Assembly (NCBI GenBank): GCA_015179045.1
Contig: WHUZ01000022.1
Location: forward strand, 124,001 to 188,000
Direction: 5' to 3'
DNA: 64,000 nucleotides
Origin: Kalaharituber pfeilii
Lineage: Eukaryota > Ascomycota > Pezizomycetes > Pezizales > Pezizaceae
Shown here: positions 20,527 to 62,160 of the stretch, in pieces
How positions within the stretch are numbered: position 1 is the stretch's first letter
Layout of the letters: each line of letters starts with the position of its first letter
The notes under the pieces: model-generated
Database searches by the model: none
What the model was told of the DNA's origin: nothing
Seen by the model: the letters and a program-made list of their open reading frames with translations, nothing else
Program-made: the position numbers and the translations under genes

Positions 20527-20582
20527 ATTTTTTTTTTTTTTCAATATCAATACTCGCATGCCGCCCTATGGGCTATGGCGAG
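20527..20582 (-). mobile_element. Family-A micro-retroposon
   Basis: Poly(T), then the inverse family-A tail ATACTCGCATGCCGCC...GGCTATGGCGAG. The hairpin base pair is of the C-G type. Target-site duplication not clear. Confidence 0.75.
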
Positions 20583-20589
20583 GGTTGTT

Positions 20590-21326
20590 CTGGCCTACCG
20601 ACGAACATTGCGGTTCGCGAATAGGCCAATTCGTCGGTGGGCGAACAATTTTTTTACAAGTACCACTAGGTACCTCTATGTGCTGCTAGTAATAAGTATA
20701 GAGAAATGTTCTGCTACCAAGGATAATTGATAAGCCAGTTACTGTGTGCTTGCAAAGCCCCATTGCCACTGACAGGTTGCAACTTGCAAGTTGCCACTTG
20801 AAAGTTGCTGTCGGTAATGTTACTAATATGACTCCCAACTTGCTACTTCCTATCCACATGCTAGAAGATAATAAAGACAACATAATTAAAAATTTGCTGC
20901 GCTTATTCTAATACTGCTATAGTAAAGAATATAGATTTGTTATCATAGCTAAATTATTATTAATAGAATAACTATAAAAACATTAGTAAATAGACTTCTA
21001 GTATTCTTCTTGCTCTAAGTGAAATTTTGGAGTCACCTTCTTAGGTAGAGATATCCGGATTCCTCTACTGTTTCTAGTAATATCTTATGGTAGTAACAAG
21101 GCTTGCGTTGATGCCAAGAATTAGAATTTTGGTGGTTGTATTGCCAAAAATGGCACTTCATAGAATCCTTGCAAGCGCCAAGCATCCATTTCTGGCAGGA
21201 CTTCAGCCATTTCCCTCCTAATCTCACTCTCGCTGGTATTGAATCTGCTCCGGGTATACTTTGCTCCTCTAGGTATCACAGCTGAGTGGTGATTTTCTCC
21301 TCAACCCCCTTTATGATGTATCTAAT
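20590..21326. other. No intact gene; possible LINE ORF1 relic
   Basis: A hairpin ACCGACGAA/TTCGTCGGT lies at 20597-20638. On the minus strand at 21033-21227 a short frame begins with RLGGKWLKSC, like the end of the LINE ORF1 RRM block at 11990, but the rest does not align. Otherwise nothing is recognised. Confidence 0.35.
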
Positions 21327-21336
21327 GCCCAATTCA

Positions 21337-21403
21337 TATGTAACTAAATCGCCATAGCCCCCAGGGCGGCACGCGATTAATGATATTTAAAAAAAAAAAA
21401 AAG
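21337..21403 (+). mobile_element. Family-A micro-retroposon
   Basis: TATGTAACTAAATCGCC followed by the A-T type hairpin and poly(A). A 10-bp duplication GCCCAATTCA lies at 21327-21336 and 21404-21413. Confidence 0.85.
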
Positions 21404-21537
21404 GCCCAATTCAGACTCATGTGCTGGTCCACTGACGAATATTGTGGTTCGCAAAACTGGGCATATGTTTTTCACGGGGCCGGCCGATTCGCGAACCGGA
21501 TGGGCCAGAACATCTCTACTTTAACCATCAGACATAT

Positions 21538-21590
21538 ACCTAAATAAACCTCGCCATAGCCTATCAGGCGGCACGCGAGTAATGATATAG

Positions 21591-21619
<29 letters not shown>
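21538..21619 (+). mobile_element. Family-A micro-retroposon
   Basis: C-G type tail with an inner stem GCCT/AGGC instead of the usual GCCC/GGGC, a compensatory change, followed by about 29 A residues. Duplication weak (ATCAG). Confidence 0.75.
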
Positions 21620-21621
<2 letters not shown>

Positions 21622-21694
21622 TCAGCCAACGGATCCCGATTGTCTTCCCTAGATCCTTGTTAGCTGTCTCCAACCATGTGAGAGGCGAGGTATG

Positions 21695-23478: not shown

Positions 23479-23541
23479 ATCGCCATAGCCCACAGGGTCG
23501 TAAGCGATAAATGATATAAAAAAAAAAAAAAAAAAAAAAAA
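23479..23541 (+). mobile_element. Family-A micro-retroposon nested in LINE
   Basis: ATCGCCATAGCCC tail plus poly(A), with a perfect 13-bp duplication ATCTGCTAGGACA at 23466-23478 and 23542-23554. Confidence 0.85.
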
Positions 23542-23618
23542 ATCTGCTAGGACAGTGCAGAGTGTGGCGGCGGAGGTGGCCGGGGGGGGAGGATCACGTG
23601 AGGAGACCACCGAGGGTC

Positions 23619-23676
23619 TTTTTTTTTTTTTTATATCTCACGTGACCCCGCTTGTAGCTGTCCGCCATCGCAGGGC
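23619..23676 (-). mobile_element. Family-B micro-retroposon nested in LINE
   Basis: Poly(T), then the inverse family-B tail. Short duplication AGGGTC at 23613-23618 and 23677-23682. Confidence 0.75.
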
Positions 23677-24117
23677 AGGGTCGAAGGAGAGGGGGGAGAA
23701 GACCCGCTGATGAGGCTGATGGAGATGCTCGGAGAGTGACTTTACATAGACATCAAGCCATTCCCTTTCCTTTTCTTTCCTCTTTTAGTTCACCATCTAC
23801 CACTTATCTTTTCATGTAACTAAACATCGCCATAGCCCATAGGGCGGCATGCGATTAATGGTATTAAAAAAAAAAAAAAAAAAAAAAAAATACCATGTCG
23901 AGCTTGTTTTAGAATTGTAACTCAGTTTGAGAATAATGGAAATGTACAGCATTAACCCGCCACAGATTACAAGACGCGCGCCGAAATATTTCTATATCCA
24001 CTTATACGACGATACAAAAGAGAGTTGGGAATTGGCCTCATGTGATGAAGGGCAAACTATGGTTGACATCGCATGGGCTCGTGAAGAGCGACTGCAATGA
24101 TGTAAATTCAATTGAGG

Positions 24118-24297
24118 ATACATGTACGTAGAAGTGTAAGGGGTGGATAGGCTTGGGGGCGTAGGCTTGGTGTTTTTAGGCGGGCTGTTTCGGGAGGCGT
24201 GACTTTAACCTTTTTTCCTATGTATCTAGCACACCATCGCCATAGCCCGTAGGGCGGCACGCGATTAATGATATAAAAAAAAAAAAAAAAAAAAAAA
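24118..24297 (+). mobile_element. 5'-truncated family-A LINE, 180 bp
   Basis: About 110 bp of LINE 3' untranslated sequence plus the A-T type hairpin tail and poly(A). A 13-bp duplication AATTCAATTGAGG lies at 24105-24117 and 24298-24310. Confidence 0.85.
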
Positions 24298-24310
24298 AAT
24301 TCAATTGAGG

Positions 24311-25078: not shown

Positions 25079-25140
25079 TTTTTTTTTTTTTTTTTTTTTT
25101 TTCACGTGACCCCGCTTGCAGCTGCTCGCCATGGCAGGGC
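25079..25140 (-). mobile_element. Family-B micro-retroposon
   Basis: Poly(T) plus the inverse family-B tail, flanked by a perfect 12-bp duplication GGAATGCCACTC (25067-25078, 25141-25152). Confidence 0.85.
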
Positions 25141-25352: not shown

Positions 25353-27931
25353 ATGGATCTGAGCACAGAAGTAGGAGACGGGATCAGGGGAGTAAATAAA
25401 CGTTGTGGAGTGTTAATGAAATCATCATTATACCATAGGTACCTATACTGGAGCATCATGATTTCTTCTATTCTTAATAACCCACAAGTTATTGAAACAC
25501 AAGTTAATGAGTTGGCAGCTAAGCTCTCACAAACCTCCTTACAAAAGAATCGATTGAATGCACTAAAAAAACGCCCTGGACCACATAGACAACCTATTGC
25601 AGCAAGGCCACGTTGGGTCCCTGTACCGTCTGCATCACCTTCTAAAAGCAAACGGAGTAGAACTGTTGAGTTCAAGCTTGGTGTACTCTCTTGGGCACGC
25701 CATACACAAGTTGATAATGGTAAAGGTAGAGTTAGAAAACCTACATTGGAAGAGATTCGGCAGAGGTTCAGATTGAAAAATGCAGCTACAATATCAAAAT
25801 GGAGAAAGGTTTATATCCTTTCTTACTATATACTACCTATTTATTTAAAGCTAATATTAGATAGAATGAAGAGCTACTTTTAAAAGCACATGGAAAATCC
25901 CGGCGAATACGACAAAACATTCCGCGATGGAAAGAACTTGAGAAAGCACTTGTTACCGCCTTTACAGCAAGACGACAAATTGGCCGCGTTGTACGTTACC
26001 GGTGGTTTGAGCGAACTTCAAAACAGCTATTTAGTGAGATTTATCCTGATTCATCGGTCCAATTTCGATTTTCTCAAGGCTGGTTCCGGCGATTTTTAGC
26101 TCGTAACGAAATTACCCTCCGTGCAATAACCAACAAAGCCCAACAAACACCTGAGGAATACCATGAACTTATTACCAACTTTTTATGCTTCAATCGCCGG
26201 AATTCACAACTACGAGATGGCACTACCGATGTTATGCAGAGAGTTGGACGATATTCAATTTCCAATATCGTGAACATGGATCAAACACCCTTGCCTTGGG
26301 AATACTTGGAGGGCAAATCATATGAGTTTAAAGGAAGCAAAACTGTATGGGTAAAGAGCCAAAAATCTGGGTGGGGGAAGCGGCAGGCAACAATTCAACT
26401 TACAGTTTTTGCAGACGGAAAGCCTCGTGTTAAGCCTCTCTTGATCTTTCGTGGTGTTGCTGAGAGTACAAGTGCTGTAAGAAAACGGGAGACCTCAAGA
26501 TATGATCCTCGTGTTGTTGTTCAGTTCAATAAGAAGGCATATGCAAATACTGACATTATTCAATTTTGGCTTCAAAAACTCCTTGTGCCAGTCTTGGGAG
26601 GGCAGCCTACACTGCTAATTATGGATCTTCTTCGTTGCCATAAAACAGCTTCTGTCAAAAAGCTTTTAAAAGCACATGACATTACCCTTTCATTAGTTCC
26701 AGGTGGCTGTACAGGTCTTGTTCAACCCCTTGATGTTTCTATCAATAGACCATTCAAAGACTTACTCAAGGACGAGATTGATAAGGAATTTCAACGTCAA
26801 GACTCAGCCATGGATACTGAAGATATTGCTGGCAGTAGTGCTGTTGGGGAGATGCGGGTTATGATGACTCGCTGTGTTGCGCAGGCATGGGAAGTATTTT
26901 GTCAACAGAAACGAGGGGTGGTTATACAAAGCTTTCGGTGCCTAGGCATATCTCTACCAATTGATGGATCTTCAGATGGGGAGATATCAATCAAGGGTTT
27001 ACAAGGGCCTTCTCTCATGGAAGCTCTGGCAGATTGGAGGACGAAGGGGGCACTAGCTACTAATAGTGACTTAAAGCCTGAGAACAGTACTAGCAGCTCC
27101 GATTCAAGCTCAGACTCGGAGTCTGGTGGCCCTGATGATGATCTACTACTCTCAGTTGCAAATGCCAGTACAGTGGAAACTCAGCAAACCGATAGAAGTG
27201 GGAGAGGTCATGGGAGGGGAAGTGGGAGGGGGAGAGAGAGGGGGGGTGGGCGTGGGAGTGGGAGTGGGAGTAGGAGTGGGAGTGCGAGTGCGAGTGGGAG
27301 TGGGAGTGCGAGTGCGAGTGGGAGTGGGAATGGGAGTACGAGTGCGAGTAGGAGTGGGAGTGCGAGTGGGAGTGGGAGTGTGAGTGGGAGTGGGAGTGGG
27401 AGTGGGAGTGTGAGTGGGAGTGGGAGTGGGAGTGGGAGTGGGAGTGCGAGTGTGAGTGCGAGTGTGAGTGCGAGTGGGAGTGGGAGTGGGAGTGGGAGTG
27501 CGAGTGCGAGTGCGAGTGCGAGTGCGAGTGGGAGTATGAGTACAAGTGGAAGTGGGAGTACGAGTGCGAGTGGGAGTGGAAGTGGGAGTGCGAGTGCGAG
27601 TGCGAGTGCGACTGGGAGTGGGAGTGGGAGTGCGAGTGGGAGTGGGAGGGGGAGGGGGCGTGGAAGGGGGCGTGGAAGAGGGCGTGGAAGAGGGCGTGGA
27701 ACAGAAGATGGGCAAGATCATGATTCTGGCACATGTGCAAGTTCACTGGAGCTTAAAAAATCACTTCCGGAGTTTGACCAATCACTTCCAGAGCCTGTGC
27801 AACTTTCAACTAGAAGAAGTGCTAGGTTGAATGGAAAACAGCGTAGCCATGTAGTTTCCTTTCCAGTTATTAGTGATACTGAGGATGATGGGCCCGAATA
27901 TGATTTCCGTTGGCAGGCGGATGAGTATTAG
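25353..27931 (+). CDS. pogo-type transposase, 840 aa with Ser-Gly repeat tail
   Basis: Two exons, 25353-25808 and 25865-27931, joined in phase 0 across an intron with GTTTAT, GCTAATATTAG and GATAG; 840 codons without a stop. Residues about 110-150 form a first helix-turn-helix (EEIRQRFRLKNAATISKWRK). About 155-250 is a CENP-B-type HTH (WFRRFLARNEITLR). The DDE_1 domain follows: MDQTPLPWEY (first Asp), LLIMDLLRCHKTAS (second Asp) and LVQPLDVSINRPFK (third Asp), the pogo order. After about residue 590 comes an acidic patch, a long Ser-Gly/Ser-Ala tract and an Arg-Gly tract. Family members cut and paste at TA sites in the nucleus. The start could also be a later Met (MISSILNN). No inactivating change is visible. 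Confidence 0.85.
27231..27650 (+). repeat. Hexanucleotide minisatellite inside the transposase ORF
   Basis: About 70 units of GGGAGT/GCGAGT with few variants. The six-base unit keeps the frame open and encodes alternating Ser with Gly or Ala. On the opposite strand it reads as His-Ser or Thr-Pro repeats, which are shadows. Confidence 0.9.
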
Positions 27932-31838: not shown

Positions 31839-32390
31839 CTTTTTTTTTTTTTTTTTAAGAAATCACATAATCCCGCTTGTAGCACGAAGCCATGGCAGGG
31901 TCCCTGGCACGCCCTCATAGCCCGGAGACAGGTTAAAAGAAATCTTCTACATACATTACCTCACCTTGCCGTAACCTCCCACCCCCTACCTTCTAGAACT
32001 TGATCTCAGAAAAGAAATTCTCCAAAACATCATACTCCTCCCTATTCTCCACCGTCCTCTTCTAGTTCTTTCCATTCCCGAAACCTTCTGGACGACCCTT
32101 CTGGTGGCTGCATCGGAAAGCGCCTATCTGCACCTCCCCGCACCTGCACTTGTCTGATTTAGCCACACCTAGTTTCTTCATCCACACCGCACACCTCACC
32201 CTCTCAGGCGCAGGGCAGTGAAAGTTGATGTCGCCACTCTATTCCACTCCATGACCTTCCCCCCTCCAAACCCCTCTATCTCTCTCCTCTCCTTCCTCCA
32301 CGCTTTTATCTTCTGGCGCACCCCACTCCCGGTGGCCACCTCCCTCCCCTTCTGCGCCGTCCCCTTCTTTGTTTCCGGCGGCATGAGTAC
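31839..32390 (-). mobile_element. Probable family-B LINE fragment with body
   Basis: Poly(T) at 31840-31856 and the inverse family-B tail to about 31904. On the minus strand a coding-like relic follows upstream (VRCAVWMKKLGVAKSDKCRC), similar to the Cys-rich end of LINE ORF2, broken by stops. If correct, this is the only copy here that links tail B to a LINE body. The 5' limit is uncertain. Confidence 0.45.
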
Positions 32391-33210: not shown

Positions 33211-33279
33211 TTTTTTTTTTTTTTTTTTTTTTTTTTGGTCACGTAGCCCCGCATACTGGCTACTGGCCTATGGCAGGGA
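33211..33279 (-). mobile_element. Family-B micro-retroposon
   Basis: Poly(T) plus the inverse tail B variant (CCCTGCCATAGGCC...GCGGGG). A 12-bp duplication CACTGCCAGGTG lies at 33199-33210 and 33280-33291. It sits about 270 bp upstream of the start codon of the 825-aa gene, inside its likely promoter. Confidence 0.85.
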
Positions 33280-36748: not shown

Positions 36749-36799
36749 GCCCTGCCATGGCGAATAGCTGCATGCGGGGTCATGTGATAAAAAAAAAAA
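36749..36799 (+). mobile_element. Family-B micro-retroposon just after a stop codon
   Basis: CCCTGCCATGGCGAATAGC...GCGGGGTCATGTGAT plus poly(A), flanked by TAGGTTTCTAGAT (36736-36748, 36800-36812). The duplicated target contains the TAG stop (36744-36746) of the 825-aa gene, so the insertion lies in its 3' untranslated region. Confidence 0.8.
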
Positions 36800-37236: not shown

Positions 37237-37273
37237 CATCGCCATAGCCCATAGGGCGGCCAGCGATTGATGA

Positions 37274-37398: not shown

Positions 37399-37447
37399 TC
37401 TTCTTTTTATATCACTACTCTTATACCGCCTTGTGGGCTATGACGAG
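37399..37447 (-). mobile_element. Worn family-A micro-retroposon
   Basis: TTATATCACTACTCTTATACCGCC...GGGCTATGACGAG is a diverged inverse tail. Duplication not visible. Confidence 0.5.
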
Positions 37448-37595: not shown

Positions 37596-37647
37596 TTTTT
37601 TTTATATCAGTACTCGCATGCCGCCCTATGGGCTATGGCGAGGGGGG
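37596..37647 (-). mobile_element. Family-A micro-retroposon
   Basis: Inverse C-G type tail. 10-bp duplication CTTCCTCATT at 37586-37595 and 37648-37657. Confidence 0.8.
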
Positions 37648-38940: not shown

Positions 38941-38997
38941 TTTTTTTTTTTTTTTTTTATGTCAATACTCGCATGCCGCCTTGTAGGCTATGGCGAG
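38941..38997 (-). mobile_element. Family-A micro-retroposon nested in the outer LTR
   Basis: Inverse C-G type tail with inner stem GCCT/AGGC. 13-bp duplication GTTCTATGAGCTT at 38928-38940 and 38998-39010. Confidence 0.85.
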
Positions 38998-40366: not shown

Positions 40367-40431
40367 CTTTTTTTTTTTTTTTTTTTTTTAATATCATCAA
40401 TCGCTTGCCGCCCCTAGGGGCTATGGCGATC
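40367..40431 (-). mobile_element. Family-A micro-retroposon
   Basis: Inverse A-T type tail with stem GCCCC/GGGGC. 10-bp duplication CATGCTCTCA at 40357-40366 and 40432-40441. Confidence 0.8.
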
Positions 40432-42213: not shown

Positions 42214-43190
42214 TTAGAAAACATGCTCTGGATGGACCTCGATATACCACTGGTATGCCTCTGATTTCCATCTTCCTAGCAGCTGAATCTCTTCCTTCGA
42301 TAGTCCTGCCCTCTGCGCTGAGGTTGCTGCCCCTCTACGGAAGGAGTGGCCTGAGTACTGGCCACCTATGCCTAGCTGACCCAGTATACGGCGGAGTGTA
42401 TTCACCACATGATTCCGTGTAAATGGAAGCCCGTTTTGACGAGAAAAGAGTGGTGCTTCTGGTGCTGCTGGTGCCAGCTGGTACAGCCGTTGGAGGGAGG
42501 TTACCGGGCATGCCGCATCTCCAGCTGCTGCGATTGTGAGGGTTATTCCGTGCTGGAAGAGGTCAGTCTTACTTGCCGGCAGAGTCACGTATACCCGTGA
42601 CTCCGCGAATTGGATGGACCTGCGGGTGAGGTGCCATTGTGGGGCGTCCTGCTCCCAGGTTGACCAGGTGAATTCTCCAACCCGTAAGAACCCTGCGAAG
42701 GCTAAGCAAAAGGCAGCATGTAATGCTATATCGTCCAGTGATTGGCCGAACTGGTCCACTATCCGGAGGAGGAGGTCCCTCGTAATGGGTAGTCTCTCTC
42801 GACGTGCCGGGGTTTCCCCATGAAAACGTTTGATACCCCTTAATATCCTTTGCAGCCTCAGGTCCTGGAAGGCTTCGACTGAGTGGCCTAGGCCCACATG
42901 CAGGGACCGCAGTCCAGTGAGGTATAGCTTCATAGTCTCTGTTTTGACTTTTCCTGCTAGAGAGGCGACCCACTCACAAAGCATCACTGCAGTTGCGGGG
43001 AAGGGGTCGGCACCGGAGAGGGCGCAAAAGAGTGCATATTCCCGTCTCGCGGTATGGTATGTTCGTCTGGTGGTTGCTGAGAGTCTCCACCAGAGGTATC
43101 TGGCTGCTCGTCGCGGGAGGTCTGGAATGTTGTTGTACCATGACTCTGATGGGTCATATGTGACTTGGGCGTCTGTAACCTGAATAGCTG
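42214..43190 (-). CDS. Tyrosine recombinase of the DIRS-like element
   Basis: An open minus-strand frame of about 325 codons. The N-terminal half is helical (RRTYHTARREYALFCALSGA), as in SAM-like DNA-binding domains. The catalytic half has the first Arg in FAGFLRVGEFTW, then GHSFRRGAATSAQRAGLS (His-x-x-Arg), LLGRWKSEAY (the His/Trp position) and the nucleophile Tyr in YQWYIEVHP. DIRS elements use this enzyme to insert circular DNA without making a target duplication. No ATG opens the upstream part, and the frame overlaps the end of the RNase H frame, so it was probably expressed by frameshift or reinitiation. No stop is visible in the catalytic part, but the parent element is broken. Confidence 0.8.
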
Positions 43191-43619
43191 TGGTGCGAGG
43201 TTAACTACCGTACGAAAAAAACCCCATTTTGGGTCACGAGTTTAGTTCCGTGTTGACCCAATAATTAATATTAGATAGTGTTAGATTTAGTTTGGCATGG
43301 TTTAGTACAGAATTACTATTGTGGTTTCGGTAATGCTGAGGACATTGGAGCAGTCCATAGTTTTCAAACCGTTAAACTTGAAATACCCGTGATAACACCG
43401 CTTTTAGATTAAATGGTTTTAGTAAAATTTAACAGCATTCACTAGAAAACTGAATTAATTCACTGGGTATCTGCCGTTTCTTAGTTCCAACTACCTGAAT
43501 CTTGTTGGCTATTAAGATTTCTTTAAATCTATTTGGGACTCTGATATCATTCCCATCTTGAAGCTACATGTGCATATTGATGAGGCCAGTGGAGTACCAC
43601 TTGACTATACCAAATTAGC

Positions 43620-43681
43620 TCGCCATAGCCCATTGGGCGGCATGCGAGTACTGATATAAAAAAAAAAATATATATATATAT
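43620..43681 (+). mobile_element. Family-A micro-retroposon (second nesting level)
   Basis: C-G type tail, poly(A) and a (TA)n run. 13-bp duplication ATACCAAATTAGC at 43607-43619 and 43682-43694. Inserted into the TA element that is inside the DIRS element. Confidence 0.85.
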
Positions 43682-45695: not shown

Positions 45696-46602
45696 CTGTG
45701 GTTCACCACTTTCCCGGACACCCCACTTTCCCGGACACCCCACTTTCCCGGACACCCCACTTTCCCGGACACCCCACTTTCCCGGACACATTTACCACCA
45801 AAACTGCGCAACTTTCGCACTCAATATCTCAACAACCACAACAGCATTTGTGAATGCACTTTGTGTAGCTATTAGACAAAGTATAATTCTTGCTATCTAG
45901 CACCTTTTCTTCATCAAAAATTGGGGGTGCAAAGGGATTATGACTTGTCGCATTTACGTTGGAAGGCTTGGCATTTATTTGTATGGGATCTCCATACAAA
46001 ATGTTCATCAGACCCGAATGTAGTCCTACTCTTCAACGCTAATTACAATAGCTATGATAGTATATGTCAAGAATCATCTGAAGAGGTATAGTAAGGTGCT
46101 GCATTTAGTTTACTTTCATTTGTTGAATTGCAGAGTTGGTGTACAACTATCTACTTTTGGGCGTTGTTCTCATACAAATGGTTTCTATGGGAAATATGAA
46201 TATTGTGAATAATTTCACAACCACTACAGTTATTACCTAACTACGTTGTTCATAGTTTCCGACTGAGTGATGCTATTGAATGTGAGTGTCTGAGTTTTTT
46301 TCATGAATTGATTGCAGGTGTAGCATGCAGAATTCGGGGGGGGTGACATTTGTATGGAGATCCCATACAAATAAATGCCAAGCCTTCCAACAAAAATGCG
46401 ACAAGCCATAATCCCTTTGCAACCACAATTTTTGATGAAGAAAAAGTGCTAGATAGCAAGAATTACACTGTGTGTAATAGCTACACAAAGTGCATTCACA
46501 AATGCTGTTGTGGTTGTTGAGATATTGAGTGCGAAAGTTGCGCAGTTTTGGTGGTAAATGTGTCCGGGAAAGTGGGGTGTCCGGGAAAGTGGTGAACCAC
46601 AG
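45696..46602. mobile_element. Foldback MITE with 17-bp repeats at its ends
   Basis: The ends CTGTGGTTCACCAC and GTGGTGAACCACAG are flanked by TA (45694-45695, 46603-46604). Next to each end lie 17-bp units CCCACTTTCCCGGACAC, five on the left and two on the right. Inverted arms of about 330 bp enclose a centre of about 250 bp. No ORF. Related to 13619-14395. Confidence 0.8.
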
Positions 46603-46604
46603 TA

Positions 46605-47600
46605 TAGGCATCTCAGGAAGGTACGGCCCATAGGTACCACTTTTGCCGTGAACCATAGAAAACCCGTTAATGATTGAAGTTCAAGTAGGGTTAGTGACCA
46701 GCGTTTGAGGTAGAGCCTCAGGAGTAGGAGTGCCTTTGCGAGCTTATCTGATGGCAGGCGTGCCTGCATGGGATTCGTGTCTATTAGAATTCCTAGGAAT
46801 TCGGCTACTGTCGACTGTAGGCTTTTGGACTCCTTGATTTCGAATCCGAGATCCCGGCAGATTTGTGCGAAATCTTGCTCATACTGACTTGCATCCGCAT
46901 GTGGATCTAGCACCTTTAAGAAGTCGTCTAGGTATTGGAGTATGTCCTCCCAGCCTTTCTCGTTTTCCAGGATCCATCGTAGCCCTTTTGCGAATAGATC
47001 AAAAATGAAGGGCGAGGTCTGGAGGCCGAATGGTAGGTACTTATCATACCACCAGCTTCCTTCCCAGGAGAAGCCTAGTAGCCACCAGTCCTCAGGGGAC
47101 ACTGGGATGTGGTGGAATGCATTGGCTAAATCTCGTTTTACCAGAATGGCTCCTTTCCCTTTTTTTGCCACTGCCGTAAGTGCTTCGTCAAACTTGACAT
47201 ATACGAGGGTGCCCCACGAGGGTGGTATGTGGTCGTTGACTGAGTTGCCATGTGGGTGTGATAGGTGGTGTATTCTCCGCCAGCCTCCATCAGCTTTTGG
47301 GACAAGGCCTAGGGGGGAGGAGATAAAATTTTCTGGTAGTACTGCGACCTGGCCAACCCGTCCATGGGAAATCTGCTCTTGGAGGTCTTTCGTGAGGACT
47401 TGTGGGGGGTCGTTTGCGGATGGGAGGTTTTTGCTTAAGATCTGCTGGGCTGGCCCGGTGTAGCCTATCTTGGCCCCATATTGGATTATTCTTATGAGTA
47501 TATTAACATAATAGCGGTCTGGGTGGTTCTTTAGCCAGCAGGCCCAACCTTCGGCCTGAAGCGGGCCTGGGTCAATTTCTGCGGGTCCCGGGATGGTCAC
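46605..47600 (-). pseudogene. Reverse transcriptase domain of the DIRS-like element
   Basis: The minus-strand frame opens at 47600 (MTIPGPAEIDPG). RT motifs follow in order: SPLGLVPKADGGWRRIHHLS, LVKRDLANAFHHIPVSP (first catalytic Asp), LPFGLQTSPFIFDLFAKGL and the YLDDFLK box (YxDD), then thumb/connection sequence up to VPMGRTFLRCLY. There the foldback MITE interrupts it. The open frame runs on into the MITE for about 50 residues; these are not part of the enzyme. The domain itself has no stop. Confidence 0.8.
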
Positions 47601-47697
47601 TGCGGGACGTCACGTGATATGGAAAATATATGGAGGATTCAGAGCTAGGATAATCATTTGATTCAATTACTACCCCTAGTGATCCTCCCTCTAATTG

Positions 47698-51810: not shown

Positions 51811-53006
51811 CAATGAATCCAACAGGCCAGGCCAGGCCAGGCCAACCGGAGGCCTGGACTGGCCTGGACCGTGAAATTCTGGGCCTGGCCTGGCCTGAAC
51901 AATCAGGCCAGGCCGTGAGGGCCGGTCCAGGCCAATCAGGCCGGTTCAGGCCATTCAGGCCGGTTCAGGCCATTCAAGCCGGTTCAGGCCATTCAGGCCG
52001 GTCCAGGCCAATCAGGCCGGTTCAGGCCATTCAGGTCAGTCCAGGCCGACCAGGCCATTTACGTAAATTCAAGCGATTTTGGAATTTAACCCAGGTGAAT
52101 TACATTTTAATAATCCTGGATATTTCCACTATCAGTAATTGACAGTTGCGCATCAGGTATCATCATCGAAGAATTGGGCCCAGTCTGTTGTATTATCTGG
52201 AAGGTCCATCATTTCTAAATTATTTCTTAGTATATATTTTTGAATACAAAGTGTGATACATACTTGACAAGAGTCGTAGACCGCTGCTGTTTGAAATTCT
52301 AGAAATACGGGACATTCTACTCATCTAAATACTCAAACAATCTGGTAAATTCTGGCCTCAATTCACCTGGATAGCTGTGGAGTGATTCGTTTAATTGGCC
52401 TGAACCGGCCTGAATGGCCTGATTCATGTGGATCAGGCCGGTCCAGGCCGGTCCAGGCCCGTCCAGGCGGTTTCAGTCCAATGCAGACGAGATTGTCACG
52501 GAGGACGGGATGAAACAAGAGGCCAAAGCAAGGAGAGCGGCCGAAAGAAACAGACTGCATATGTCATATAGGCCACTACGCAGACTAGGCAATAGGGTCG
52601 CAACGCTAGCTGGCATCCTTGGAGGCAAGGGCCTCCGGCGCTGGAAATTCAAGGTCGGCACAGCTGACAGCCCGGAATGCCGGTGGTGCGGCGAGGCTGA
52701 AGAAACGACCCTTCACATATTGTCTCAATGTAGAGTCTGGAAGCAGAGATGCCCAAGGGGTGAGGATGGATTGTGCAGACCCTTGGGTGACCAAGATGAA
52801 GGGGAGGGCCTTCGAGGAGTGATAGGAATTTTGGAATGGGCGAGGGGTTAGCCCCAGGGGATTTACTTCTATTGTTCCGTACTTGTACTTTGTTTTGATG
52901 TAGCTAGACCTCGCCATAGCCCATAGGGCGGCACGCGAGTATTGATATAAAAAAAAAAAAAAAAAAAAAAAAGTCCAATGCAGATCACGGCCTGTTGGAT
53001 TCATTG
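51811..53006. mobile_element. hAT-like foldback element, copy B (complete)
   Basis: The termini CAATGAATCCAACAGGCC and GGCCTGTTGGATTCATTG are perfect inverted repeats. An exact 8-bp duplication TTAACAGA lies at 51803-51810 and 53007-53014. The length of the duplication and the CA... ends fit hAT. The arms are GGCC-rich tandem arrays in opposite orientation around an AT-rich core of about 330 bp shared with copy A. It is interrupted near its right end by a truncated LINE. No transposase. Confidence 0.85.
52488..52971 (+). mobile_element. 5'-truncated family-A LINE inside copy B
   Basis: 13-bp duplication AGTCCAATGCAGA at 52475-52487 and 52972-52984. The open frame to 52851 encodes the end of ORF2: a short region after RNase H (EAKARRAAERNRLHMSYRPL) and the Cys/His knuckle CRWCGEAEETTLHILSQC typical of Tad-type LINEs. 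An untranslated region of about 60 bp and the C-G type hairpin tail with poly(A) follow. This copy ties the micro-retroposon tail to a LINE body. Confidence 0.9.
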
Positions 53007-53014
53007 TTAACAGA

Positions 53015-54817: not shown

Positions 54818-55540
54818 ATTTTGTTGGGAAAGGTGCGTCAGGAGGGGTGTGCGGGTGAAACATAACCCTAACCTCTTCCTTTCGCGATTGAAGCGTGCCA
54901 AGAGAGTCTGGGCACGAGAACAGGCATACCTTTATTAATTAGCGTCCAGGATCGCTAGCTGTGATGCGCGGCTTCCCGCTGCAATATGCACCTACTACGA
55001 CTACCATTTACTTCGATACAGCAAAAGTTATTTCGCTCCTAACGTTATTAACAAATACATCATATGCAGGGTATGTTCCAGTGCTCGTAATACCGCGGAC
55101 AAGATTGAAACTTCAGGCTTCCTTACATTTGGGTATACCGGCATTGATACCGGAATACACGGCTTGCGTAACAGGGGTTTATTCTGGTCAAACTCCCTGC
55201 TTATACAATATCGAAGTGTTTTAATATTTATAGCTGCATCTAAGTAGTATGATACCGCAGGTAAGGCCCCCAACGTTCCACCACCGCTGGATCCTAAACG
55301 GGAAACGATCGACAAACTGTTTGCACGACTTTAGAAGCGACTACGTAAGTAATTGAGATACTTAAAATACCACATATTGTCACTCTCCTACTAGCTCAAC
55401 AACATTTCACATCATAACTTCGCACCTCAATATCAACGCCCACTTCACTGAAGTAATTCTCTACGGTCACATACAGGATTCCAGTTGGAGCTGCTTTGTA
55501 CAAATAAGTTTTCTTTACTGCTTCTCTTCCGGAATCCTTC

Positions 55541-58500
55541 ATGAGTACAATCATGCCGACAGCATATTTCTTTTGCAAAAGATGTTACGTTCAATTTTCG
55601 ACCAACAAAAGCCTTGAAGCGCATGATTGTTCCCGCTTCACGAATGACAATAACAATGGATACACACAAGCGCCTGCTTGGAGTCCCGCTGTTCCCCCCA
55701 TATCCCCTAGCCCATATCCATTCCCAAGCAAATTCGTCGATGTCGGTGTGGTTGCATCAGCCGGAAGTGCTACACGTGCACACGAACAGAACGAAGCGGC
55801 CGGGATGACGATATTTGCATGTGGGGATTGTGGAGCGCGTTACGTTTCGAGCAGCCTACTTAAGGCTCATCACGAGCACATGAATCATGGGCCATGTAAG
55901 TTACGTATATTGATTTTAATGTGTGTCATTTTATTGCACGTTGTCCTAACTCAGTCTTTGTACCTGGCCTGTAGATAAGTTGTCAAACGCCTCATGTCCA
56001 ACCTTACAAAGTAGGACTCAACCTTCTTTAGAGAGCAGGAAGGAACTGTTAATCACACGTTCAAGTAAAACAGGACTTGTGACTTGCCCCGACTGTTCAC
56101 GTACGCTCGCATCCTCAGTAGGCCTCTTGTCACACCAGCGGGCTCTGAAGCATGGATTTTGTAAGCCTTGAGATAGCACTCCTATCCTATCGTTACTGAA
56201 GAAGACATATACTAATGACGATTTTTGCTTGCCCGCTAGACGGAACTATTCCTAAGGACAAGCCCGAATCCTATAAGGAAGGGATATGTCCAGCTGGGAA
56301 TTGCACCGAAATTATTAAGAAACCTAAGAAGATGTATCATCACCTGTGTACTGCGCATCCCGGGATAGACTGGTCGATTGTTCGACCCATGGCTACCGAC
56401 GCCAACCTTGACAGTCATTCAACGACAGGGACCCGGACAGAATCAAATCACTCTACTACAGAACATGTTGCTTCTTCTGGATCAACTTCTTTAATGACTG
56501 AAGGTGATTAACACATAATGACCACCTTTCAATAAGGAATAATCTGTGCTAATACCAAGCCTGCATACGTAGAGTACAGATATTGTGCCAACTGTAATAC
56601 AACCCATGATTCAGTGATAGCTCTCTTGGCCCATCAATTATTTGGAAGGCATGGTGTCTGTAAGTGTCTTGAAGTCTCACCGAGGCATAAGCTCATAAAT
56701 ACTGACATAAAATAGTCGAAGGTCTGCCTGCATACTGCGACAAAATCCCGACCAAGTGCCCATATCCTAGCTGTCCCAGGATCTTCAATGGAGTTTGGGG
56801 GCTTCGGTTACATCTGGACCAGCACCGTGGGTTCAATTGGTCAATTTCCAAAGTCGACGAAAGTTTACATAAGCTCAGTACCCCACCTACTGTTCTGGAA
56901 CCTCATCATGTACAGGTGCCGGAAGTCGCTGATCATGAACTATCAAATTTTACTTGTGCTGTAGTAGGTTGCTCTCGTTGGTTCTCAAAAGCTTATGAAC
57001 TTCACAAGCACGAGGTTAGGTTCCACAAGCTTCCTGAGTCACAACAAAAGTCGCAGCAATTTAGATTTCACTGCAACATAAAGGGGTGCAAGTCCTCTCC
57101 ATGGACTGAGAAAAAACTCCAAAAACATATGCATCGTGAACACACTCCTAGTACCCCCACCCCTAGCAGCACTGTTCCGGCACAGCCGCCAATGGTCGAT
57201 TCTTATCATCATAGCTCGACCTCCAAAGGGCAAAAGCAGCAGCCTAAGACTGATAATGTATTTGCAACTAATGAGTTGAACAATGCACCTGCGGCAGATT
57301 TTTCTTGTGCAGTATTAGGTTGCTCTCGTCGGTTCACCACGGCTCTTGGACTCCATGAACACGAAGTCAATATCCACAAGCTTCCCAAGACACAACAAAG
57401 GTCACAACTGTACAAACTTCAGTGCAGAATCCCAGGATGCAAGGTTTCCGAATGGAGTAAGAGGAAATTCCGTAAGCACATGTGGACCGAACACCCTACC
57501 AGTACATATGCTACCAGTAGGAATACCCCACTACAGGAGCATCGCTGCCTAGATTGCTCTCGCGACTTTACCAGTGCTCACGCATTACAAGCACATCTCA
57601 AAGACAAGGTTCACGCAGTCCGTCCAACACTTCTTGAACCGCCTCCAAACACCTGCCCAGAGTGCAACAAAACCTTTAAAACCGCGGATGGTCTTCAGTC
57701 GCACCTGGCTAACTCTCTCAAGCATAAGCCGATATCGCCTAATCTCAAATGCATCCGTCCGGGCTGTACCAGGAACTTCAATTCGCCTTCCGCAATGTTA
57801 CACCATTTAGAAAGTGGAGGTTGCTCCCCGGATATCGACATCTATGCGGTGAATAAAGTCATTATGGACAATGATCCCACTGGGATTATAACCGATGCAC
57901 AGGCCAGCACGGCACTGGAGGATTGGCGAACCGCTCAGCGAGGCTTAATTTGCGATGCCAGGCAGGCGGAAGTGATTAACGCACCTTACCTTAGCGGCGG
58001 AGGCAGCACAGAGGCTATCCGGGATAATAACGATGCGGATGATGATGATGATGATCACGACGGAGGCGGCGTGCAGCTTTTCACGCCCAATTCCTTCAAC
58101 TCAGCATCAGGATTCATATCGGTGTCGTCCTTCGCGGGTGAGGTGACTCCAACATCATACATCAGCGGCCCTGGATCGGGAGGGATGATGACCCCTCAAT
58201 CCATCATTGGAGGCCCAGACGCAGCAATGCTAGAGAATGAATTGGCCCTTCTTTCCACACAGTCCCATTATAGCAACAGAAATTATACCTGCCCATTATG
58301 TTCCAATCGTCGTGCGTTCCTTAGTCAGAAGGCATTAGAATCTCACCTAGGATCCGCTGCTCACGCTCCTAAAATATTCCACTGTCCGACTTCTCTGATC
58401 GATGGGTACGAAGATGTCTTGGGGGGAGCTCGAAGGAAAAAGAAAAATCACTTCGCGATGTTTACTACATTGAGTGGATTGGCGCAACACCTGGAAGCGG

Positions 58501-58598
58501 AAGCGTGTAAGGGAGGAAGAGGGACTTTTGAGAAAGTAGTCCAGTTTGTTGAAGCGAGGTTGAAGGAGATGGGGCTTGAAGGGAAGCTGTTGATGTAA
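55541..58598 (+). CDS. Multi-finger C2H2 zinc-finger protein, 924 aa
   Basis: Exons 55541-55895, 55975-56160, 56240-56503, 56573-56659 and 56716-58598 give exactly 925 codons. All four introns are phase 1 with GTAAGT/GTAAGC/GTGATT donors. Exons 2, 3 and 4 each encode one finger-like module. About ten Cys/His modules are visible, for example CKRCYVQFSTNKSLEAHDC, CGDCGARYVSSSLLKAHHEH, CPDCSRTLASSVGLLSHQRA, CPYPSCPRIFNGVWGLRLHL, CPECNKTFKTADGLQSHL and late CPLCSNRRAFLSQKALESHL. Between them lie a Ser/Pro linker and an acidic Asp run (residues about 730-745). Such proteins usually bind DNA or RNA in the nucleus; the target is unknown. The paralogue at 17092-19828 is broken, so this is the likely functional copy. 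Confidence 0.85.
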
Positions 58599-58979
58599 TA
58601 CGTATGTTGTTTCATTTCTAAAGCGGCTCGCATTTCAGAATGTGCAAATCGATGTGTATGCCCGGGCTTGCTTCGCCATGACTTTCCATTATATGAATCC
58701 CATTGCACATGTCCTTGTTATTCAGATTTTGAATCCATTGGGGCTGATCTTCCCTAATGACTTGGGGTGAACATATGGCCCCACTCTACAGCGGAACGTG
58801 TGCGAGTAAGGGGTTTCTTTTTTATTTGCTTCTTGTTTTTTTTCCCTTCTGACATACGAATTTGCCTTGGATGCGACGAAATGAGTGTATTCCATTATTT
58901 GTTATCGACTAGCTACAACCGTACTTTGTTTGGAGCGCAGACATGAATTTAAAGGAGAGGATGATATCCGCTACCCTCA

Positions 58980-59030
58980 CGAGGGGAACGCGATTGATGA
59001 TATATATATATGAAAAAAAAAAGAGATAGA
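58980..59030 (+). mobile_element. Degenerate LINE-A tail (shared with copy 1)
   Basis: GAACGCGATTGATGATATAT and an A run, at the position matching 20205-20245. Confidence 0.45.
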
Positions 59031-59168
59031 ACGTAAGTAAAAGCACTAAATACCTCTATCCCCAGGACCCGAGTGTAGGTGCAGGGAAGGCAATTACAAA
59101 TTGAGGCTTGCGTCAGTACCTAAGTGGTACAAAAGCAGTACTCATGGCGCTACTTGATTACAAGCATC

Positions 59169-59306
59169 ACGCTCGACGTTGCGACATTGTTTTTACTTTT
59201 TCTGTGATGTTATACTCTGTTTATTCGTTGTTATGTATTTAAATCCTCGCCATAGCTCACAAGGCGGCATGCGAGTAATGACATTAAAAAAAAAAAAAAA
59301 AAAAAA
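59169..59306 (+). mobile_element. Family-A retroposon, 138 bp, with empty site in copy 1
   Basis: About 75 bp of LINE 3' sequence plus the C-G type tail and poly(A). 13-bp duplication GATTACAAGCATC at 59156-59168 and 59307-59319. Absent from the matching place in copy 1 (near 20390). Confidence 0.9.
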
Positions 59307-59350
59307 GATTACAAGCATCGCTCTTCACAGAGCATAGAAGAACCGTAGCT

Positions 59351-59402
59351 TAGCCCTAGAGCGGTATGCGATTAATGATATAAAAAAAAAAAAAAAAAAA
59401 AA
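59351..59402 (+). mobile_element. Family-A micro-retroposon, 52 bp, with empty site
   Basis: Only about 31 nt of the tail (starting within TAGCCCTAGAGCGG) and poly(A). 13-bp duplication AAGAACCGTAGCT at 59338-59350 and 59403-59415. Copy 1 has a single uninterrupted version near 20426-20438. Confidence 0.9.
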
Positions 59403-59442
59403 AAGAACCGTAGCTGCATTAGGAAAGCCTCAGCAGCGCATT

Positions 59443-59495
59443 TTTCTTTTTTTTTTATATCAATACTCGCATGCCGCCCAAAGGGCTATGGCGAG
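59443..59495 (-). mobile_element. Family-A micro-retroposon, 53 bp, with empty site
   Basis: Inverse C-G type tail. 12-bp duplication CAGCAGCGCATT at 59431-59442 and 59496-59507. Copy 1 has the single sequence at 20455-20465. Confidence 0.9.
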
Positions 59496-59545
59496 CAGCA
59501 GCGCATTAAAAACCATATGCTCTGCGTTTGCTAAGAACAATTAGT

Positions 59546-59912
59546 TACTAGCATGTAGCTAAGAAGTGCTCAACAATACACGTTGGTCCGGTTAACGTTG
59601 AAATGATCACCAGCAGTAAATACTGATCATGACATACGTATAATAAATTTAGTGTGTACTGGGGGCCTTAAGAGGTAAGTAGCTAGTAGTCAGACCTTGC
59701 TATAACGCATATATATAAAATTTGTTTTAACGCGTGCCACCGGACCTTGCGCACCACCGGTATTTGCAGCCTTTCCGGATACCACAATAAAAAATAAATA
59801 TGATGCTCAAGTGGGCTCAATTTGAAGCCAGAGCATGTCCGAATATAGTAGATTATCCTCTGCGCATTATCGACGCTTATTTCTAGTATATAGGTATGGT
59901 ATATACAAAACC
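59546..59912. other. No gene; pogo-like MITE fragment
   Basis: CAGACCTTGCTATAACGC at 59691 resembles one end of the MITE at 15560. Otherwise nothing recognised. Confidence 0.4.
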
Positions 59913-61400
59913 AAATGCTGGACGTGCAAGCCAGGATAACGAAGGAGACGAAGAGGTGGTATGACACGGAGGTTAAAGAGGCCAGGCAGCAGGTGAGGGA
60001 GATACTACGGAAAAACAGTGAGATGCCAACGGAGGGCAGAACAAGGGCAAGAACGCTTCTTAGGGAAATCATCTGGGACAAGCAGGCATACTGGGAAGAA
60101 TACCTAGAGGAAGAAAGGATAGAATCAACATGGGACGTTTTCAGGTTGGCAAGGGACCTCTTTCATCAGAGGGACCTGGTCAGAGTTGAAGGCACAGACA
60201 AGGAGATACCAGAGGCTTTCATAGAAAGGAACTACGCCACGGATGACCCATGAACTCCTACGGCGCAAGGGCAGTCTACACTGGTGGGAGCAGAATCACA
60301 GAGAGAACAGGGGTAGGGCTGTGGAGGGGTGAAGGCGAGCCCATCTCTCTACATCTGGGCAAGAGGGCGACTGTGAACGACGCGGAGCTCGTAGCGATGG
60401 CAAAAGCTCTAGAAACCGGAAACGAGGAGTTACTCATAGTCACAGACTCCAAGGTCGCCATCCAAAAGTTGCGAGCCATATCAGAAGGCCAACCAACCAT
60501 CAGAAAGCCAACCAACCCCCGAAGGGGCAGCACAATGGGCCAGAAAAGCCTGGGAAGGAAGAATTATACGAGCGGGAGGGTCTGCGAGGGCTGCATTGCC
60601 ACGGTGAGGGCTATAGAGATATAGAGATACCGTTGAGTCTATTGAACTTAGAGTCGCAAGAACAGCAGGTTTATATACATGAGAAAGCATGGCATAACGT
60701 GACTTGGGAACCATAACTGAATAGGAAATTATCAGGGAAGATATCATATCAGGAAGGTGAGAAAGGCACGGGATGCGTGGCTTGCAAAGAGAACGCCGTG
60801 GCGTAAACCACACAAAAGTTTGCGTTGTGGCGTAATTCATATACAGTCCAATAGCGAGGCTAAATGCATACGAGTGGAACGAAAAGATAACAGAAAAGAT
60901 AGATAACAGCAACAGGTGGCAACGGATGTAATGTTCCGATAAGAATAGCCCGGGGAGGACTGGACGTGGCGGTCATCTGGGTCAAGGGACACAAGGGATT
61001 GAAGGGGAACAAGAAAGCCGACAGAGCAGCCAAAATCGGTGCCTTGATGCCTTACCAAACAGAAATAGTGACCGAGGCCGGAATGCGCATGGAGGCCAAA
61101 GCCCGGAGAGCGGAGGAGAGAGATAGACTAAAATTAAAATAAGGCCCCTACAGAGACTGGGGGGACTGACAGCCACGCTGGCGGGGCTGCTAGGGGGCAA
61201 AAGCCTACGGGCATGGAGGCACAGAATAGGCACAGCGGAGAGCTCGGAATGCTGCGGGTGTGGGGAAGCGGAAGAAACGGCGGAGCATGTCTGGGGAGCA
61301 TGCAGAATATGGAGAAATAAATGACCCGGGGGGCGGCAAGCCCTGGGGAACCCGCCGGAGGCAGGAGAGGGGAGACCCACTGGTGGCGCTGTTGGATTGG
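59913..61400 (+). pseudogene. LINE ORF2 remnant lacking the RT domain
   Basis: Reads a linker after the endonuclease (RWYDTEVKEARQQVREILRK, then AYWEEYLEEERIESTWDVFR), then after a frame change directly an RNase H domain (ARAVYTGGSRITERTGVGLW; NDAELVAMAKALETGNEELL; LLIVTDSKVAIQKL; later VAVIWVKGHKGLKGNKKADR). The end is a Cys/His knuckle like CGCGEAEETAEHVWGACRIW. The RT domain of about 500 residues that should sit between linker and RNase H is gone. The first RNase H Asp is replaced by Gly (YTGG for YTDG), and frames shift after 61140. A solo LTR splits the RNase H. Inactive. Confidence 0.75.
60565..60941 (-). mobile_element. Solo LTR inside the LINE RNase H
   Basis: 5-bp duplication AGAAT at 60560-60564 and 60942-60946. 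Excising the LTR with one duplication restores the frame EGRIARGGLDVAVIWVKGHK. Both ends read TA rather than TG/CA, consistent with G-to-A and C-to-T changes. TGTATATAAA reads on the minus strand as a promoter. Confidence 0.75.
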
Positions 61401-61542
61401 GCAGGTCGGTGACTTCACATCTAGCTAGGCTTTATTCTACTGCAGTTCATATAACCACTTTCCAGACGGGGACGAAATCGCAGGAGTTATTTCATACTTC
61501 ATTATTTCCAGGCGAGCGAAGGAGTTTCCTTAGTTACTTTCA

Positions 61543-62160
61543 TCTTTTTTTTTTTTTTTTAAAAAAATATATATCAGTTATCGCTTGCCGCCCTAAGGGC
61601 TATTGCGATTTAGGTACATAGGAGATAAATGAGGAAAAGAACAGGACAAATAATGAACCCCAACTGAGCGTCATCCCGCTAACCCGGTACATAGAGATGT
61701 GTAGGAAATAGTGACTTATTCGCCTTCCATCCACCGCATCAGTGCCGCCACCGGGTTCCCTTCGCCCCCTTCCCGGGGTTTGAGTAGTGCCTCCTGTCCT
61801 CCGGGGCCACCTCCTTTTCCATACCCGGCATCTGTCCCAGACGTGCGCTGCCGTCTCCTCCTCCGTCCCGCACCATCTGCCTTCCGCTCCTTCCGCCTTG
61901 CCTATTCTGTGTCTCCACGCTCGTAGGCCTTTGTCGCCCAGCAGGCCGGCGAGTGTCCCTGTCCCGTGTCCCAGTGTTTGCAGGGGCCTTTTTTTTTTTT
62001 TTTTTTTATATCAATACTCGCTTGCCGCCCCACGGGCTATGGCGAGGGTCTTAATTAAAGTAAGTCAAAAAACTCCAAACCTAACTACCTCTCTAGCTAC
62101 ATGTATTGCCCGCGGATCCTTCCATGTTGCGGGTGGCGGCAGGGGCCTGTAGCTCAGTCC
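61543..62160 (-). mobile_element. 5'-truncated family-A LINE
   Basis: Poly(T) at 61545, the inverse A-T type hairpin tail to about 61612, then on the minus strand the ORF2 end with a Cys/His knuckle like CGTEEETAAHVWDRCRVW. A probable duplication TTACTTT lies at both edges (near 61532 and 62161). It is split by a younger insertion at 61990-62138. Confidence 0.7.
61990..62138 (-). mobile_element. Family-A retroposon nested in the LINE
   Basis: Inverse C-G type tail plus about 90 bp. 10-bp duplication GCAGGGGCCT at 61980-61989 and 62139-62148. Confidence 0.8.

Follow-up and report, generated by a model that had tools for sequence, protein, structure and literature searches.

Hairpin-tailed insertions in the window and genome-wide

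The stretch of Kalaharituber pfeilii DNA analysed here, hereafter the window, is 64,000 nt long and carries an ORF1-only element ending in a hairpin and poly(A), along with further hairpins of three tail families (A, B and C). For family A the closing pair (A-T or C-G) is indicated, and target-site duplications (TSD) or flanks are given where read.

4461–4490, −: family-B hairpin-only insertion, TSD AGCATAGAATTGGTGC
10681–12226, +: ORF1-only element with hairpin and poly(A), flanks GTTGCAAGAT at 10671–10680 and 12227–12236
10914–12014, +: ORF1 reading frame, 366 aa from stop to stop, no Pfam match
12165–12194, +: family-A hairpin, A-T, tail of the ORF1-only element
20553–20582, −: family-A hairpin, C-G
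21348–21377, +: family-A hairpin, A-T, insertion begins 11 nt upstream of the hairpin, TSD GCCCAATTCA
21550–21579, +: family-A hairpin, C-G, inner stem GCCT/AGGC
23479–23508, +: family-A hairpin-only insertion, A-T, TSD ATCTGCTAGGACA stops directly before the first hairpin base
23646–23675, −: family-B hairpin
23826–23855, +: family-A hairpin, A-T, insertion start 400 nt upstream
24236–24265, +: family-A hairpin, A-T, insertion start 118 nt upstream
25110–25139, −: family-B hairpin-only insertion, TSD GAGTGGCATTCC
31871–31900, −: family-B hairpin
33247–33278, −: family-C hairpin-only insertion, TSD AACACCTGGCAGTG
36750–36779, +: family-B hairpin-only insertion, TSD ATAGGTTTCTAGAT
37238–37267, +: family-A hairpin-only insertion, A-T, flanks TTGCAAGGCCGTA read by eye
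37418–37447, −: decayed family-A copy, C-G
37613–37642, −: family-A hairpin, C-G, insertion start 5 nt upstream of the hairpin
38968–38997, −: family-A hairpin-only insertion, C-G, inner stem GCCT/AGGC, TSD AAGCTCATAGAACC
40400–40430, −: family-A hairpin, A-T, insertion start at the hairpin base, TSD TGAGAGCATG
43619–43648, +: family-A hairpin-only insertion, C-G, flanks TATACCAAATTAG read by eye (AT-repeat tail, to which the script was blind)
52910–52939, +: family-A hairpin, C-G, tail of an ORF2 3′ fragment whose ORF2 match stops 61 nt upstream
59246–59275, +: family-A hairpin, C-G
59345–59372, +: family-A copy with insertion start within the hairpin, TSD AAGAACCGTAGCT
59466–59495, −: family-A hairpin-only insertion, C-G, TSD AATGCGCTGCTG
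61580–61609, −: family-A hairpin, A-T
62017–62046, −: family-A hairpin, C-G
63933–63964, +: family-C hairpin, decayed

The initial annotation had listed 16 family-A hairpins, and all 16 coordinates indeed carry the hairpin with the closing pair claimed, seven of them on the minus strand; the inner GCCT/AGGC stems reported at 21538 and 38941 are both real. Three family-A copies had escaped it: one at 37238 (+, A-T), another at 37418 (−, C-G), the 3′ arm of which is damaged, and a third at 59345 (+). Two main features described below also go beyond it, namely the insertion starts at the base of the hairpin and the occurrence of this tail on ORF1-only elements.

RNAfold predicted the structure (((((....((((...)))).....))))) for the family-A tail, at −13.5 kcal/mol for the C-G type and −11.5 for the A-T type, that is, two stems with a 4x5 internal loop and a variable apical loop, located ~10 nt upstream of the poly(A) tail. 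The energy gain over shuffled sequences was modest (z of only −0.8 to −1.9 in the five tails folded), which counts against the recognition role proposed below. A search of the 78-Mb genome with the exact family-A hairpin core, its outermost letters left off, retrieved 3,665 copies, and a whole-genome control search with the reversed core yielded 0 matches. One conserved two-stem hairpin is common to thousands of LINE-type insertions in this fungal genome.

The same tail ends ORF1-only and ORF2 elements

The same hairpin tail ends both ORF2 elements, which carry endonuclease and RNase H, and ORF1-only elements, so that RT-coding and dependent elements have a tail in common, as in stringent-type LINEs. 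Scoring of 7,996 candidates uncovered three ORF1 homologs, all in Kalaharituber pfeilii, and the predicted ORF1 fold (mean pLDDT 60.7) was too low in confidence for a structure search. As in HAL1-like elements, TSD-bounded units consisting of ORF1 and the tail without ORF2 were found at 10681–12226 of the window, at L034, L019, L047, L059 and L066 (tail A) and at L023 and L097 (tail B); most TSD-bounded ORF1-only elements are 5′-truncated.

ORF2 3′ ends bearing RNase H lie 54–202 nt upstream of the hairpin. Endonuclease and RNase H share one long frame, the arrangement of APE-type LINEs of the Tad1/I group; PF14529 matches adjoin RNase H-query matches at 10 loci with equal reported frame length (1,086–1,151 aa; for example, C308:428433-431399 and C339:667369-670293). 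In a PDB structure search of P0002, the best 60 of 92 matches were all confined to the RNase H stretch. A listed ORF1 was located within 6 kb upstream of one of the 150 listed endonuclease matches, with a hairpin in between (scoring covered 112 of 2,581 ORF1 candidates and 150 of 288 endonuclease candidates). No element with both ORF1 and ORF2 was found among the matches listed, and the existence of ORF2 elements devoid of ORF1 is suggested only. A candidate ORF2-ORF1 fusion (gene models P0009 and P0012) was dropped; a similar layout in L073 comes from an ORF1 element inserted within ORF2, its duplication having been read by eye.

Insertions often begin at the base of the hairpin

Among the 65 duplication-bearing family-A copies, 20 start at positions −2 to +2 of the hairpin base, where the local density (16 starts within 143 nt upstream) predicts 0.56 (Poisson p ~2e-24). 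Three further copies start within the hairpin, and the whole of it is therefore not needed in the final insert. L096, with an apparent start at +11, had been removed before this count, its 'duplication' being a family-A hairpin. Family B, made of other letters, showed 14 of 21 starts at −3 to +1, 11 of them at exactly −1; in a second set, all 10 family-B copies starting at −1 had G or A at that position, opposite T. A control with exchanged flanks produced false starts at −6 or later in 14 of 1,980 cases. Close to the hairpin, duplications were called with a threshold laxer by one base, which counts against our preferred reading.

Such starts could reflect the way in which the template is held. 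The ORF2 protein would bind the hairpin and prime on the adjacent poly(A); the hairpin, once bound, would then either protect the final ~40 nt of an RNA undergoing decay, leaving a template that ends at the hairpin base, or mark the point at which copying stops. Both routes would lead to a minimal insertion of hairpin, spacer and poly(A), and we deem the shielded template slightly more likely, as a matter of judgement and not as a result. The start might instead be set by the cDNA: once the hairpin has been copied and the RNA removed by RNase H, the cDNA 3′ end would fold back, ending synthesis and fixing the 5′ end of the insertion, with RNA recognition being secondary. ORF2 does contain the RNase H that this route draws on, and two families with unlike letters both have starts no more than 2 nt from the hairpin base, in agreement with it. 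We nonetheless regard it as unlikely, as any strong hairpin should act in this manner, yet the remaining 42 upstream family-A starts all lie at different distances (a weak objection, since the bodies differ), and it leaves the sharing of the tail by unlike bodies unexplained. Rather less probable is a polyadenylation or RNA-stability element found at the insertion boundary only incidentally; its placement just upstream of the poly(A) and a poly(A)-protecting motif of such kind described for another retroelement (PMC12501189) would agree with this function, but stability alone would not fix the 5′ start, and a 5′-exonuclease stop at the hairpin, which would fix it, merges with the binding of the template by the ORF2 protein.

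Pairing is maintained through change

The closing pair was typed in all but 165 of the 3,665 core copies. Genome-wide, it reads A..T in 1,236 and C..G in 2,213 copies, with 31 A..G and 20 C..T, that is, 51 mixed pairs versus ~1,600 expected under independence. The absence of mixed pairs noted initially holds for the 16 listed copies and not across the genome. The inner pair reads C..G in 3,665 cases and T..A in 727 (132 expected), with 26 C..A and 55 T..G. We further scored 48 distinct 30-nt copies, none of them the centre of its locus (61 of 63 parent copies were never a fetched centre). In this set, 93.5% of the pair cells pair, a third pair (5-26) changes from C-G to T-A in three copies, and the covariation score was 0.170 versus 0.088 in shuffles, a value reached by 0 of 500 shuffles and above all six slides. 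Three pairs, spread over both helices, were changed on both sides; as many were seen in 60 of 500 shuffles, and two of the slides gave more (5 and 4). The statistic on further pair types was equalled by 341 of 500 shuffles, and both results count against structural recognition. Compensatory changes are shown at three pairs, the closing one included, and the tail, like that of stringent-type LINEs, is a conserved 3′ stem-loop whose pairs are kept through change. RNAalifold on 14 family-B and family-C tails found no compensatory pair, and their inner stem contains no pair changed on both sides.

Thirty A..G copies were read, 14 of which lack a clear duplication. The other 16 have a readable one; 12 of these begin at the base of the hairpin, a position at which the unmatched letter may belong to the target DNA, and four start far upstream. 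Three A..G copies (L069, L091 and L093) have one body in common, and an unpaired closing base is therefore tolerated; indeed, some long-bodied A..G copies are truly unpaired at this position.

Conservation of the letters as mere sequence, with the A-T and C-G types representing two inherited lineages free of structural selection, appears improbable. Within the window, the spacer letters do partly follow the closing type, with TATTGATAT or TACTGATAT mostly in C-G copies, and the well-supported branches of the weakly resolved ORF2 tree force a single closing-pair change and need no more than that. Against this view, two pairs besides the closing one are altered on both sides, A..T outnumbers A..G 40-fold and C..T 62-fold, and the inner T..A outnumbers C..A 28-fold and wobble T..G 13-fold. 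Moreover, ORF1 elements as well as ORF2 elements carry either closing type, and the inner T-A pair accompanies either type and many loop triplets; the types therefore do not simply trace to two lineages, a possibility that the initial annotation had named as refuting its proposal. The ORF2 tree is compatible with few origins without demonstrating them. Mapping of the closing pair on the ORF1 and ORF2 trees was set aside because of weak support and because some rows are nested hairpin-only inserts, not the tail of that ORF (L073, A..G; L098, family B); owing to these rows, the changes forced by the ORF1 tree were left out of the argument.

Hairpin-only and longer copies resemble each other

With families A and B pooled, a pyrimidine precedes the duplication in 34 of 41 hairpin-only and 36 of 40 longer copies, the duplications average 12.5 and 13.3 nt, and the poly(A) tails 19.6 and 19.8, respectively. 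Given this agreement, one machinery likely made both classes. That hairpin-only copies are not truncated LINEs but a very small SINE-like family apart, produced by source genes of its own, is the least probable alternative despite their uniform 5′ end (chiefly in family B, 11 of 21 at −1), since ~40 nt leaves no room for an internal promoter, the window contained no tRNA, no Rfam match at gathering score and no SINE-type Pol III/tRNA head, hairpin-only inserts occur in families A, B and C, their target signature and poly(A) length equal those of longer copies, and either closing type is found among hairpin-only and longer family-A copies.

Probable recognition of the hairpin by the ORF2 protein

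Insertions often start at the hairpin base and its paired letters change together; the hairpin is therefore likely the handle of the copying enzyme. We accordingly consider it quite probable that the ORF2 protein of the LINE uses this structure to recognise and grip its RNA template. Binding of the hairpin by the RT is inferred from work on L2-type LINEs, which require a cognate 3′ stem-loop bound by the ORF2 protein (PMC4176376). The tail is likely where the RT of a stringent-type LINE docks, and through this common tail ORF1-only elements would borrow the ORF2 protein in trans. A more far-reaching reading, possible though somewhat short of probable, is a two-component LINE in which the ORF1 and ORF2 genes reside on separate mobile elements, each with lineages of its own, and a common 3′ hairpin is their sole link; A and B would be two such systems coexisting. 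The minimal mobile unit would be the hairpin with ORF2 protein bound: RNA would decay to it, the protected 40 nt and poly(A) would be inserted, and the many hairpin-only scars would be footprints of the RT on its template.

How a LINE chooses its own RNA is understood in only a few elements. In this genome one recognition hairpin exists in thousands of natural variants, two tail families coexist, and the ends of the insertions seem to mark the boundary of the enzyme-template complex. If the split between ORF1 and ORF2 is true, the two proteins of a LINE evolve on separate genomic parasites, and cis-preference and trans-mobilisation are open to direct test.

Although 3′ hairpins are already known, hairpin-set truncation and the ORF1/ORF2 split look new. 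The stringent L2 LINEs UnaL2, ZfL2-1 and ZfL2-2 likewise end in a stem-loop, needed in L2 for retrotransposition (PMC4176376), whereas the Kalaharituber tail has poly(A), a two-stem hairpin with its internal and apical loops, truncations that clearly peak at the hairpin base, and partners with ORF1 only. Among fungal Tad1 elements, for which stem-loops are cited (PMC5135761), the MgL/Mg-SINE and Tad1-24_BG/SINE2-1_BG pairs are listed with 3′ ends common to LINE and SINE (PMC3747384); by their descriptions, they differ in that the Kalaharituber partners are ORF1-coding elements and bare hairpins, not tRNA-headed SINEs. The plant and algal L1 elements described by Ohshima have related 3′ ends of ~50 nt, a hairpin with compensatory changes in plants, and poly(A), but their clade and letters differ, and hairpin-only insertions are not described in the part of that paper drawn on here (PMC3747384). 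Mammalian HAL1 (half-L1) is also an ORF1-only element thought to move by ORF2 in trans (PMC5753468, PMC3627910); it arose from L1 several times, whereas the Kalaharituber ORF1-only elements form many diverged lineages with two tail families. Finally, human L1 ORF2p, with Alu, holds a stem-loop next to poly(A) through its C-terminal segment, and in the same account the L1 3′ UTR has no similar stem-loop (PMC10830416), whereas in Kalaharituber the LINE itself bears the hairpin.

A 3' tail hairpin preserved through sequence change

The sense strand of the family-A tail, one of three sets of LINE-type 3' tails (A, B and C), reads NTCGC-CATA-GCCC-NNN-GGGC-GGCAN-GCGAN, followed by a spacer of ~10 nt (TAATGATAT and relatives) and by poly(A), the latter found behind the hairpin in 144 of 153 distinct copies of the first set read. 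The hairpin was present at all 16 places where the initial annotation had put it. Most of the tails submitted to RNAfold gave 5-bp outer and 4-bp inner stems, separated by a 4x5 internal loop and capped by a 3-nt loop, with modest z-scores (−0.8 to −1.9 in five tails). The genome contains 1,328 exact matches to the family-B core, CCCTGC-CA-TGGC-GAACA-GCTR-CAN-GCGGGG-T.

The hairpin structure is preserved as its sequence changes. A search of the 78-Mb genome (360 contigs) recovered 3,665 exact copies of the family-A core pattern and none of the reversed control. The outermost (closing) pair, typed for all but 165 of these copies, was A..T in 1,236, C..G in 2,213, A..G in 31 and C..T in 20, against ~1,600 mixed pairs expected under independent ends. 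The proposal that this pair changes together thus stands, but the accompanying statement that no mixed pair occurs fails genome-wide. At the loop-adjacent pair we counted 3,665 C..G (loop of 2-6 allowed) and, with the loop fixed at 3, 727 T..A (132 expected), 26 C..A and 55 T..G. Covariation, for which the initial annotation had proposed a test, was assessed on 63 family-A copies that are not the centre of their own locus (two of them being the centre of a neighbouring one). Of these, 58 were 30 nt long, and the test used the 48 with distinct sequences. Among these, 93.5% of pair cells pair, and 20 cells are changed on both sides, a count that none of 500 shuffles reached (mean 6.7), at pairs 1-30, 5-26 and 13-17. 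However, 60 of 500 shuffles have at least as many pairs with two-sided change (three) and two slides have more, and 341 of 500 shuffles reach the observed tally of further pair types.

Insertions often start at the hairpin base

For mapping 5' starts, the 3' flank was compared with up to 1,400 nt of upstream DNA in search of target-site duplications. With the 3' arm and spacer as its anchor, the search did not depend on the remainder of the hairpin being present. Close to the hairpin it required one base less than elsewhere (9 vs 10); with exchanged flanks, 49 of 1,980 trials were accepted overall and 14 of 1,980 gave false starts at −6 or later (offsets from the first hairpin base). Duplications were found in 76 of 148 family-A copies, a set reduced to 66 by removing copies fetched as mixed and to 65 by dropping one nested false case. 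Twenty of these start at −2 to +2 and three within the hairpin; the other 42 lie between −5 and −1,374. In family B, with duplications in 21 of 50 copies, 14 starts fall at −3 to +1, 11 of them exactly at −1. A second, slightly different family-B set includes 10 copies with offset −1, in which G (six copies) or A (four) at the first position faces T in 10/10, and the family-C copy at 33247 also starts at −1. Two family-A inserts (minus strand 2885 of locus L033; window 59345) seem to start near the inner stem (TAGCCC) instead of the outer one, where a second, weak stop is possible.

Mixed closing pairs were examined in 30 A..G copies with poly(A). A clear duplication was evident in 16, of which 12 start at the hairpin base, versus 14 of 47 paired copies (Fisher p 0.0027). 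Since the duplication extends into hairpin letter 1 or 2 in nine of these 12, that letter can be target DNA. The remaining mixed copies include long-bodied ones, and because three of them (loci L069, L091 and L093) have one body in common, the closing base is truly unpaired in some elements.

Hairpin-only copies, that is, those starting at the hairpin base, show the same target signature as longer ones, so that one machinery probably made both. Across families A and B, 41 hairpin-only copies (mixed-selected ones included) and 40 longer copies were alike in duplication length, poly(A) length and the pyrimidine directly preceding the duplication; A is the first duplication letter in 24/41 and 25/40, respectively, although this A may also reflect poly(A) overlap.

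One tail on ORF1 and ORF2 elements

The bodies in front of the tail are diverse. Among 116 upstream regions, the set offered no 3'-anchored relative for 89, some of which may be plain target DNA where the duplication went uncalled; the others form groups of 8 and 3 and eight pairs. Two kinds of protein precede the tails, so that one tail is carried by two kinds of element. The 3' ends of ORF2, which include RNase H (PF00075, E 1e-12) and a CCHC-like end, lie 54-202 nt upstream of hairpin A, and ORF1 3' ends ~100-200 nt upstream of hairpin A and 186-268 nt upstream of hairpin B. An endonuclease (PF14529) adjoins the RNase H-bearing region at 10 loci, the two showing identical frame lengths (1,086-1,151 aa). 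Kalaharituber pfeilii is a desert truffle, and the 13 database homologs of one ORF2 fragment (locus L036; 7,996 candidates scored) all come from this species (42-71% identity). ORF1 elements with their own duplications, most of them 5'-truncated and with no ORF2 between ORF1 and tail, are:

Window 10681-12226: ORF1 element with hairpin and own duplication GTTGCAAGAT
Loci L034, L019, L047, L059 and L066: ORF1 elements with tail A and own duplications
Loci L023 and L097: ORF1 elements with tail B and own duplications

On contig C2, the only one to combine ORF1 matches with full hairpin lists, 3/3 ORF1 protein matches, found independently of the hairpin search, have a hairpin 108-166 nt downstream. 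Of 111 ORF1 matches, 12 were checked; seven have a listed hairpin, and the other five lie on contigs without listed C..G copies. Five ORF2 matches were likewise checked, and a listed hairpin lies behind two. The three ORF1s with their own tail B split from all others in the ORF1 tree (100/100). Purifying selection acts on ORF1, with pN below pS in every one of the 134 pairs offering enough sites (of 136 compared; means 0.30 vs 0.74). Of the 150 endonuclease matches listed, a single one has a listed ORF1 within 6 kb upstream, and a hairpin belonging to that ORF1 separates the two. ORF2 elements devoid of ORF1 are suggested, and stated no more firmly because the ORF1 search scored 112 of 2,581 candidates. 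On the minus strand of locus L073 (560-1900), a hairpin-only insertion lies in an ORF1 element that itself lies in an ORF2 element, as judged from junction repeats read by eye.

Proposed mechanism and precedents

We infer that the ORF2 protein would grip the hairpin and then prime on poly(A), in line with ZfL2 (PMC4176376) and with what the structure of L1 ORF2p suggests (PMC10830416). The precise insertion end could arise by trimming of the template back to the bound hairpin, by halting of copying at the hairpin or by cDNA snap-back, and ORF1-only elements would move in trans. Precedents exist for 3' hairpins in stringent LINEs, including compensatory changes in plants (PMC3747384) and a citation for fungal Tad1 (PMC5135761), and for ORF1-only elements in the form of HAL1 (PMC5753468, PMC3627910). 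Searches on split LINEs (strict query), ORF1-only elements and stem-loops with truncation found no description of insertions made of the hairpin only, or of ORF1 and ORF2 on separate elements, in titles, abstract openings and passages, most subscription journals being outside the search.

Other features of the window

16615-20230 and 55072-58998: direct repeat of several kilobases, its copies ~38.7 kb apart and 88-99% identical in most blocks, with C2H2 zinc-finger frames at 18326-19828 and 56706-58598
25865-27931: DDE_1/Tc5-type transposase frame, its C-terminus a 12/18-bp tandem repeat encoding Ser-Gly-Ala runs
42214-43200, minus strand: tyrosine recombinase frame (PF00589), possibly, as a guess, from a Crypton- or DIRS-like element
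46449-47609, minus strand: reverse transcriptase frame (PF00078)
45757-46000 and 46349-46592: 244-nt inverted repeat overlapping this reverse transcriptase frame
50-349 and 51933-52232: CAGGCC-type minisatellite, 52 kb apart, 90% identical
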